DNA of 64,000 nucleotides from positions 1-64,000 of the forward strand of contig CAIYID010000033.1 in the NCBI GenBank assembly GCA_903926205.1. Direction: 5' to 3'. Shown here one piece after another: positions 43,903 through 46,813 of the stretch. Numbering within the stretch: position 1 is the first letter of the stretch; each line of letters starts with the position of its first letter. The notes beneath the pieces are model-generated. The model saw only the letters and a program-made list of their open reading frames with translations. It did no database searches and was not told where the DNA came from. Both the position numbers and the translations under genes were made by a program. Source of the stretch: an uncultured Bdellovibrionales bacterium. GTDB taxonomy: Bacteria; Bdellovibrionota; Bdellovibrionia; Bdellovibrionales; Bdellovibrionaceae.

Positions 43903-44898
43903 ATGGAACAAGGTTGGAATGGTCTGCCGTTTCGGCCGATCTCTCATCATTATTTAGCGCTCTTTTCAGAAAAGGTCTACAAGATCCCGGTTTCTATCTC
44001 TGATGACTGTCCCAATCGACGAGGTTTAAAGGGAATGAAGCCCTGTGTGTTTTGCGATGAATGGGGCTCCGCTGCTCATTCTGAATCCTTTCAAATCGAA
44101 CTCAATGAGCAAATTATTAAATACAAAGAGCAAGTCCAAAGACGCTACAAAGCTCAGCAATTTTTGGTTTATTTCCAGGCTTACACTAATACTTTTTTAA
44201 AACTTCAAAGCATTGAAGATCATTTTAAAACAGCCCTGGCCTTTGATTTCGTCAAAGGCTTAGTCGTTGGTACTCGCCCCGATTGCCTTTCTCAGGGGGT
44301 GCTCGATCTTTGGGCCAAAACAAACGAAAAGCGAAATATTTTCGTTGAACTCGGCGTGCAAAGCTTCAATGAAAAACACCTAAAATTTATGGAGAGAGGT
44401 CATTCTGCGCGAGATTCTATCGAGGCCATCAAGAAAATCCATAGCACAAGCAATGTGGATATCGGAATTCATCTGATCTTTGGCAATCCTGACGAAAGCG
44501 ACGCAGATGTGATTGAGGCAGCAAAGATTTGCAACGATTTACCGATCACCAATGTTAAATTGCACCACCTTCACGTTTTAAAAAATACTCCTTTAGCCAT
44601 GAGCTACCAAAAAGGGGATTTCTCCCCGATCGCTTTTGATACTTACTGTGAAAGAGTCAGACTCTTTCTTGAAAACCTTTCGCCGGAAATTTTTATCCAA
44701 AGATTAGCGGCCTATTCTTCTCGTTGGGAGGAACTCATTGCTCCAGAATGGACCATCAATAAAATGAAAACGCATCAAGGCATCGTGGATTATTTGCGGT
44801 CTAGAAATTCCTTTCAAAGCAAGAGCTTTGCTCCGCGCACAGCAATTCAAAAGGAACTTCAAAAAAAAATTCAGGCGCAAGCTTTACCAATTTTGTAG
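43903..44898 (+). CDS. YhcC-like radical SAM protein
   Basis: The 331-residue product matches the TIGR01212/YhcC group. The early Cys set DDCPNRRGLKGMKPCVFC (one Cys, a long gap, then Cys-x2-Cys) is the group's iron-sulfur signature. It is followed by YFQAYTNTF, GTRPDCL, VELGVQSFNEKHL and GIHLIFGNPDES, typical of this family and of related tRNA-modifying enzymes. It should bind a 4Fe-4S cluster and cleave SAM. The substrate is not established. No clear ribosome site precedes the ATG. It is divergent from the MnmD-like gene, so both may act on tRNA, which is inference. Confidence 0.85.
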   Translation: MEQGWNGLPFRPISHHYLALFSEKVYKIPVSISDDCPNRRGLKGMKPCVFCDEWGSAAHSESFQIELNEQIIKYKEQVQRRYKAQQFLVYFQAYTNTFLKLQSIEDHFKTALAFDFVKGLVVGTRPDCLSQGVLDLWAKTNEKRNIFVELGVQSFNEKHLKFMERGHSARDSIEAIKKIHSTSNVDIGIHLIFGNPDESDADVIEAAKICNDLPITNVKLHHLHVLKNTPLAMSYQKGDFSPIAFDTYCERVRLFLENLSPEIFIQRLAAYSSRWEELIAPEWTINKMKTHQGIVDYLRSRNSFQSKSFAPRTAIQKELQKKIQAQALPIL

Positions 44899-45161
44899 TG
44901 ACAGAAAATTTAAGAATATCATCTTTTATGGTTACAAAGACATCCTGATATCTTTTCGCTCATTCCTTAATCAGTCAAAGTATGTCAATGCCTTGATTTA
45001 TTCTGCTTAAATGATAGGCAGCATTGGGTTAAAAAATGCTTCAATTTTCAAAAAATGTTGGACTCATAAAAAATATGGCTTAGCGTGAAAACAAAAGAAC
45101 AAGCCTTATTGGTGCTAATTTATTACTGGACCACTAGTGCTAGAGGGAACGGATATCTTAT

Positions 45162-46157
45162 ATGATTTTAGATCCTGGTTTTAATTTAGTTCTTCGACCG
45201 ATGAAGTACCCCGTTTTTAACGATCTTTTTAATAAAAAGATCGGAAACTCGTGGACCCTGAATCAAATAGACTTATCTGCTGATTTAATTGATCTCAATA
45301 AAAAAATTAGTCCTAGAGTAAAAGGACTTATTCTTCGTTTGTTAGCTTTTTTTGCGACTAACGAGTCATTAGTCAGTAATAATTTGGCACTTAATTTATA
45401 CAAACATGTGAACTCACCTGAAGCACGTCTCTATTTATCTCGACAGCTTTATGAAGAATCTCTGCACACCCAATTTTACCTCACATTACTAGATCGTTAT
45501 TCTTCAAATCCTGAGGAGACACATCAAGCTTTTGTAACCAATAAGATGACACCAGCTCTTCAGCACAAAATCAATTTTTGTTTGAAATGGATGAATTCAG
45601 TTAACAGCTTAGATCGACTTATCACTATCGAGGATCGTCGCCAGTTTTTAGTGAATCTGATTTGTTTTTCAAATTGTGTGGAAGGCCTTTTCTTCTCAGG
45701 AGCCTTTGCCTCTATTTTCTTTTTACAATCAAAAGGTCTCTTTATTGGTTTTGCGAAAGCTGCGAACAATATTTTTCATGAAAAAAGAGAGCACGCTCAA
45801 GCTGCTTTGGAAGTGATTAAAATTGCTCTTCTAGAGGAACCCAATTTATTCAATGAACAAATGAAAGATATGATCATATTAATGATGGAAGATGCCATCG
45901 ATGCGGAAATGGCTTTTGCTAAAAATATTCTGGATACAGGAATTGAAGGCTTATTATTAACTGATATGCGTCAGTATTTAGAATTCGCAGCTGACCAGTA
46001 TTTAGAGGAACTACAAATCCCAGTTCGATACCTCGTAAAAAATCCATTCCCATTTATGGAGCCTCCAGCTAAAAATGAGCAAGAGAAAAAAGAAGCTACT
46101 TTATCTAAGCAAAGTGCAATGACTTCTCCAGAGGAAACTTGTGGTGCTGATCTTTAG
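45162..46157 (+). CDS. Divergent ribonucleotide-reductase R2 (beta)-like protein with altered metal site
   Basis: The 331-residue protein aligns without gaps to class I R2 subunits of the type starting LDPGF-x-L-x-LRPMKYP. Positions matching metal ligands are Glu68 (FFATNESLV, usually Asp), Glu99 and His102 (LYEESLHTQFY), Glu174 (CVEGLFF), Lys208 where the last Glu should be (IFHEKREH), and His211. The radical Tyr106 is kept. The adjacent Arg-Asp of the usual RDE motif is His-Glu. The normal C-terminal tail with NFFE and a radical-transfer Tyr is replaced by a Lys/Glu/Ser-rich tail without Tyr. No alpha-subunit gene is nearby. It may be a modified oxidase or regulator rather than a standard reductase subunit. 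A signal-anchored protein gene follows 23 bases later. Confidence 0.85.
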   Translation: MILDPGFNLVLRPMKYPVFNDLFNKKIGNSWTLNQIDLSADLIDLNKKISPRVKGLILRLLAFFATNESLVSNNLALNLYKHVNSPEARLYLSRQLYEESLHTQFYLTLLDRYSSNPEETHQAFVTNKMTPALQHKINFCLKWMNSVNSLDRLITIEDRRQFLVNLICFSNCVEGLFFSGAFASIFFLQSKGLFIGFAKAANNIFHEKREHAQAALEVIKIALLEEPNLFNEQMKDMIILMMEDAIDAEMAFAKNILDTGIEGLLLTDMRQYLEFAADQYLEELQIPVRYLVKNPFPFMEPPAKNEQEKKEATLSKQSAMTSPEETCGADL

Positions 46158-46180: not shown

Positions 46181-46813
46181 GTGAAATTAATTAGATACTT
46201 TTTATTGCTAACGACAGCCGGATTTTGTTTATTGGTGGGATTTTGGATAGGCAATCATCCTTCCTATTATCAAAAATACTTAGATCTTTATAAGCCTGAA
46301 ATTATTTTCTACGCTAAAGAAATGGATGAATTATTTCCCTTAGAGTTCAGAAATGAACTTCAAGCAAAATCCCCTGTTAAAATTCATTTCGAACCAAATA
46401 ACACTGAAAACGTCGATGTTTTTCTCGTTGATCAGGTTTTTTTAAAATCATTTGATACTGCCATTATCGGCACCCCCAAGAATACAACAACTCAATGGAA
46501 TGATATTTTCAAATTAATTTCTCCTGATTTTCAAAGAGAGCTCTTTAAAAGAACAAAAGCCATTCCTGTTTTATGGAAAATCAAAGACAATCACCTCGTT
46601 GTGCTTTCTTTTGTGATAGATGCTAATAAAAACCATAAAGCTTCTATTCTCTGGAAATTTATTCAAATTTTTTTAAATAATGATATTCATCAGCAGTGGC
46701 TCAATCGACACAAGTGGAACACCACTTTACTTCACTTTGACGAAGGAAGCCTTGACGAAAACCGTAAGGCTTCAGCCATTCGAAAATCAGTCTTAGTTAA
46801 TTTGGAAATTTGA
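46181..46813 (+). CDS. Signal-anchored protein of unknown function in operon with the R2-like gene
   Basis: The 210-residue product starts at a GTG with AGGA four bases upstream. A hydrophobic segment (YFLLLTTAGFCLLVGFWIG) acts as a signal anchor. The rest is about 180 residues, alpha/beta with many Phe/Leu/Ile, ending in a Lys-rich part. Segments such as NVDVFLVDQVFLKSFD and DIHQQWLNRHKWN faintly recall substrate-binding proteins, but I do not claim a family. It is only 23 bases after the R2-like gene and probably shares its transcript. Its stop is convergent with the lipoprotein at 46830. Confidence 0.5.
   Translation: MKLIRYFLLLTTAGFCLLVGFWIGNHPSYYQKYLDLYKPEIIFYAKEMDELFPLEFRNELQAKSPVKIHFEPNNTENVDVFLVDQVFLKSFDTAIIGTPKNTTTQWNDIFKLISPDFQRELFKRTKAIPVLWKIKDNHLVVLSFVIDANKNHKASILWKFIQIFLNNDIHQQWLNRHKWNTTLLHFDEGSLDENRKASAIRKSVLVNLEI

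Follow-up and report, generated by a model that had tools for sequence, protein, structure and literature searches.

The window analysed here, a stretch of 64,000 nucleotides from the draft genome of an uncultured Bdellovibrionales bacterium, contains an open reading frame of 331 amino acids (positions 45162 to 46157, plus strand) whose product matches the Pfam family Ribonuc_red_sm (PF00268, E value 7e-62) of ribonucleotide reductase (RNR) R2 proteins and which is the only R2 gene in the genome. On its left lies mnmL/YtqA, a radical SAM tRNA-modification gene (43903 to 44898, plus strand; above the cut-off of NCBIfam TIGR01212), and on its right a gene for a genus-specific protein of 210 amino acids with an N-terminal hydrophobic stretch and no Pfam family (46181 to 46813, plus strand). 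In G001, the single other genome of the genus in our comparison, the syntenic order is mnmL, nrdA (encoding 841 amino acids), nrdB, and a gene for a 209-residue protein that is 50% identical to the 210-residue product. In the window, nrdA is missing between mnmL and the R2 gene.

A conserved leader (44958 to 45114, plus strand) precedes nrdA in G001 and the R2 gene in the window, with 77% identity over 158 columns (E value 1e-28); its counterpart in G001 is located 132 to 289 bp before nrdA. Beyond the leader, homology to G001 restarts four bases 5' of the R2 start codon, and the deletion junction therefore falls within positions 45115 to 45157, where neither side aligns. About 2.7 kb of the sister sequence is absent from the window, namely, 131 bp of the leader, the whole of nrdA, and the nrdA-nrdB gap, and a tblastn search of the window for nrdA remnants returned chance matches only. 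We conclude that the window R2 gene is the nrdB orthologue in its original place, orphaned through an in-place deletion of nrdA. The recruitment of an R2 paralogue to another role, as proposed in an earlier sequence-only reading of this DNA, thus holds in part: a new role is favoured, though not proven, and the gene is the orthologue of nrdB rather than a paralogue.

The non-coding leader block is 77% identical to the sister, despite a divergence of 54% at third codon positions in the R2 gene. No NrdR box was identified in 44958 to 45114, the block gave only a chance-level Rfam match (and the sister locus gave none), and a promoter and terminator scan returned nothing beyond chance. As a candidate, the block may hold regulatory sites. 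The R2 gene has no tight Shine-Dalgarno (SD)-like sequence; reading by eye, we find GAGGGA 13 bases before the ATG. The downstream gene, once suggested as a partner of the R2 protein, is not a dedicated one, since the canonical nrdB of G001 has the same neighbor; it follows nrdB in the window genome as in G001 and is missing next to the other R2 loci that were retrieved.

In class I R2 proteins such as that of Escherichia coli, the fourth carboxylate ligand bridges both metals, the Asp preceding it is part of the radical chain, and a tail Tyr together with the C terminus serves radical transfer and R1 binding. Among solved structures, the class Ic R2 of Chlamydia (2ani and 1syy) is closest in sequence. 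The region from the third to the fourth ligand aligns with it gap-free, and this alignment bears out the earlier placement of Lys208 at the fourth carboxylate, with H211 as the second His. The motif HEKREH (residues 206 to 211; 45777 to 45794, plus strand) stands here for R-D-E-S-x-H, so that the class I set of four carboxylates and two His is interrupted by Lys208. Codon 68 (45363 to 45365, plus strand) encodes Glu where relatives have the first-ligand Asp, and Tyr106 is retained; the homologue alignment agrees with the sequence-only reading on both residues. The substitutions D68E, D207E, E208K, and W203N are unique among the homologues compared, and W31, E99, H102, Y106, E174, and H211 are retained, with the aromatics F177, F178, and F182 also unchanged. 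The C-terminal tail (residues 301 to 331; 46062 to 46154, plus strand) is rewritten by a 5-residue deletion and substitutions, is predicted to be disordered, and lacks both Tyr and the terminal R1-binding motif of the family, again as first noticed. NCBIfam R2 cut-offs were not used as evidence because normal relatives miss them too.

An AlphaFold2 model built with 63 sequences has a mean pLDDT of 85.5 (approximately 90 over residues 1 to 300), although the predicted fold is in part a product of the relatives that were aligned. The best Foldseek matches are R2 structures, with Chlamydia NrdB at the top. A shifted helix that would bring E207 or E210 into the ligand site is not supported, as the model shows one continuous helix (residues 195 to 225) carrying both K208 and H211, followed further on by a disordered tail. 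A single sequencing error at codon 208 is excluded as the cause, since 128 of the 327 residues that align with the sister R2 are different.

Homologues of R2 were found in 92 of the 100 relatives scanned. All 29 orthologues retrieved (window left out) display D68, RDES(x)H, and an NFFER..SAYQ tail, and the window R2 departs at 59 of the 186 columns otherwise invariant among them. We further compared 100 homologous loci from species genomes and viral contigs (80 genomic and 20 viral; one of them, L073, is the sister genome G001 itself). D68, E99, H102, Y106, E174, D207, E208, and H211 are present in 99/99 loci covering these sites, the remaining locus being a fragment that is canonical over the stretch covered, and an NFFE-type tail with Tyr is present in all 97 loci uncut by a contig end. 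The viral scan returned canonical R2s only. A DNA pattern for HEKREHA, searched in 141 genomes of the order, occurs in the window only (a looser pattern allowing three mismatches was set aside, as it hit noise in almost all genomes). Across these searches no second genome with this altered R2 was found, and the open literature searched held no report of such an orphan bacterial R2, which is not proof of absence.

The window genome (99.96% complete, 94 contigs) encodes two large subunits matching PF02867. Both are class II enzymes (NrdJ) by NCBIfam TIGR02504 above its cut-off, one of them with the class II N-terminal domain. A search of the genome with the sister NrdA matched only these two, at 28 to 32% identity, and neither NrdI (PF07972) nor NrdD was detected, control genomes being positive for each; NrdR is present. 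The sequence-only reading had called for a look for a normal nrdA/nrdB pair elsewhere in the genome, and there is none: the window R2 is the sole R2, and class I NrdA is absent. A second reductase of class II is encoded at L003/L182 (G000 contig C78); it has a TSCPD domain and is of a type found in scattered relatives only (G064, G074, G021, G011, and others). In a genome of the Bdellovibrio group, the 209-kb second contig holds an additional, divergent nrdA-nrdB pair (L069; G047 contig C2).

Among the 100 relatives, R2 and NrdA co-occur. Apart from the window genome, the exceptions are all assemblies that are fragmented or less complete, which leaves the window genome as the only high-completeness one with R2 but without NrdA. 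Both proteins are missing in G009, G015, G054, G066, G073, G078, and G086 (some of them incomplete), and the occurrence of several such genomes suggests that the class I system has been lost repeatedly within the order.

Judged by its sequence, the window R2 is no longer an RNR subunit. Probably it is still produced and, as a folded protein, under selection for some task other than ribonucleotide reduction, although both expression and role are what we infer. The reading we lean toward, with somewhat better than even confidence, is that of a catalytically dead R2, orphaned by the nrdA deletion and retained in folded form for a non-RNR role.

The evolutionary rates set this gene apart from its neighbor. 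In the tree, the window R2 groups with G001 (support 0.96), with a branch length of 0.686 versus 0.028 for G001, approximately 25 times more change. The branch lengths for the adjacent mnmL are 0.199 in the window versus 0.103 in G001; mnmL evolves at a normal rate, and its omega is not raised on the window branch. For the R2 gene, a codon model gives an omega of 0.138 on the window branch versus 0.016 in the background (likelihood ratio test [LRT] 22.4 against equality), and omega = 1 across the whole branch is disfavoured (LRT 11.3). Since the window branch covers periods both before and after nrdA was lost, a two-phase codon model was fitted, in which a fully neutral phase after the loss lies 3.8 log units below the best fit (2dlnL 7.5). 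Neutral simulation to 128 changes leads to an expectation of 7 to 9 stop codons, and stop-free runs made up 0 of 1,800 and about 0.07% of another 1,500, whereas the real frame is stop-free over 331 codons; stop-free survival under neutrality becomes 6% if only about 40 changes postdate the loss.

Change is also unevenly placed along the protein, affecting 20% of invariant columns versus 62% of the most variable ones (rank test P 1.5e-6), a trend that drops to P 0.10 under the harsh correction of removing 30 changed sites as possible pre-loss changes. Within residues 1 to 300, 12 of 59 invariant columns have changed (E35Q, D68E, A126T, Y184S, R189Q, L194F, L197F, T201A, W203N, R206H, D207E, and E208K), nine of which lie in residues 184 to 208. 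Change is densest at the metal/radical helix and in the tail, where the sole indel seen is in-frame. These selection tests carry moderate weight, as they depend on a single branch whose synonymous sites are saturated, and the sister sequence stands in for the ancestor. We therefore hold with moderate confidence that the sequence data fit purifying selection better than neutral decay and that the gene is still selected.

The main rival to a maintained protein is a slowly decaying relic, in which R2 has been drifting to loss since nrdA went and is stop-free by chance. This we consider unlikely, yet worth serious attention. It agrees with the absence of a partner, the loss of conserved catalytic and R1-contact residues, the roughly eightfold rise in omega, the lack of a tight SD-like sequence, and the several relatives that dropped the whole class I system, and cotranscription upstream of another gene perhaps helps to keep the frame. 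Set against it are the unbroken frame despite some 128 residue changes, the avoidance of conserved columns, the placement of the only indel, and the poorer fit of a neutral phase after the loss: the gene has neither the broken frame of a pseudogene nor a clearly neutral mode of evolution, neutral models being moderately disfavoured.

Comparison with known R2 proteins delimits the remaining possibilities. Canonical NrdB of the Bdellovibrionales (e.g., Bdellovibrio bacteriovorus kdesi, L077) occupies the same locus, has the same fold at 55 to 61% identity, and shares E99, H102, Y106, E174, H211, and W31 with the window R2, which differs in D68E, D207E, E208K, W203N, its lost tail, and the absence of a genomic NrdA. 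Chlamydia trachomatis class Ic NrdB (1syy and 4d8g), nearest in solved sequence and fold, likewise has Glu as its first ligand, but it has Phe at the radical Tyr position, where the window R2 has Y106, as well as all six ligands and an R1 partner. Modified R2s are also known in yeast (Rnr4) and in apicomplexans (R2_e2), where they operate alongside a normal R2 and an R1 (PMC3824934). Like the window R2, they combine changes at functional residues with long branches and an intact frame; their cells contain a normal R2 and R1, whereas the window organism has neither, its altered R2 being the single R2 of the genome.

A working oxidase or mononuclear metal enzyme akin to R2lox, using E68, E99, H102, E174, H211, and Y106, appears improbable. 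Five of the six ligands or their like are kept, as are the pocket residues F178, F182, and Y106, and R2lox also combines the R2 fold with the lack of a radical-transfer tail. However, a Lys in place of the bridging Glu should disfavour a dinuclear site, and R2lox models match far under their cut-offs (28.5 bits versus 315). To our knowledge, the R2lox family retains all six ligands, a set that is altered in the window R2.

Far less probable still is a new metal-free radical R2 of class Ie type that works with a class II large subunit. Class Ie R2 proteins, known as VPK and QSK variants, have three ligand glutamates replaced, are class Ib derived, and require NrdI and R1 (PMC11846895). The window R2 shares with them Lys at the fourth carboxylate and the retained Tyr (Y106), the active-site residue that is DOPA in class Ie. 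Unlike them, it has Lys as its only replacement of this kind, keeping the two further carboxylates E99 and E174, is not class Ib derived, has neither NrdI nor a class I R1, and has lost the R1-contact tail with its Tyr. Class II enzymes, moreover, generate their own radical from adenosylcobalamin. On these grounds the other proposal of the sequence-only reading, a new variant of R2 whose site is mixed and class Ie-like, is not sustained, and because the genome has only two class II reductases, we regard the window R2 as an orphan rather than a mixed class Ie enzyme. An assembly or binning artefact, conceivable in a 94-contig draft, is hardly credible given that both flanks are syntenic with the genus mate, nrdA occurs nowhere else in the genome, and the changes are distributed across the whole R2 gene.

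For the favoured orphan protein, we propose the following history. A class I nrdA-nrdB operon would have lost nrdA by in-place deletion, a loss that would be tolerated because the B12-dependent class II NrdJ enzymes would supply deoxyribonucleotides, and the former nrdA leader now directly precedes nrdB. The orphan R2 would then have shed features needed only for RNR: the bridging Glu208, replaced by Lys, Asp207 of the radical chain, the Tyr of the tail, and the end that binds R1. Changes of this kind to the ligand, radical chain, and tail are what one would expect had the RNR role ceased when nrdA was lost. The protein has kept its helical fold together with most of the conserved core. Lys208 presumably sits among the remaining carboxylates, so that the protein is likely metal-free or at most mononuclear and without a di-metal tyrosyl radical. 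More tentatively, an R2 freed by in-place loss of R1 may have become a new protein, metal-free or mononuclear, that is selected for a function of its own and still lies behind the old nrdAB leader.

The window genome is thus the one good genome in which R2 outlived NrdA. Lys at the fourth ligand position alone does not imply a class Ie radical enzyme, and surveys that equate R2 genes with RNR activity can therefore err. Were the gene a relic, it would mark an ordinary stage as class II reductases take over from those of class I. If it is functional, the locus would be a clean natural experiment, in which a single deletion took the R1 partner and the sister genome keeps the prior state, and its changes would separate the R2 residues needed only for radical transfer from those of the fold. 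Should the new-function reading be true, the radical-generating subunit of RNR would, in a single step, have turned into a protein of another kind.
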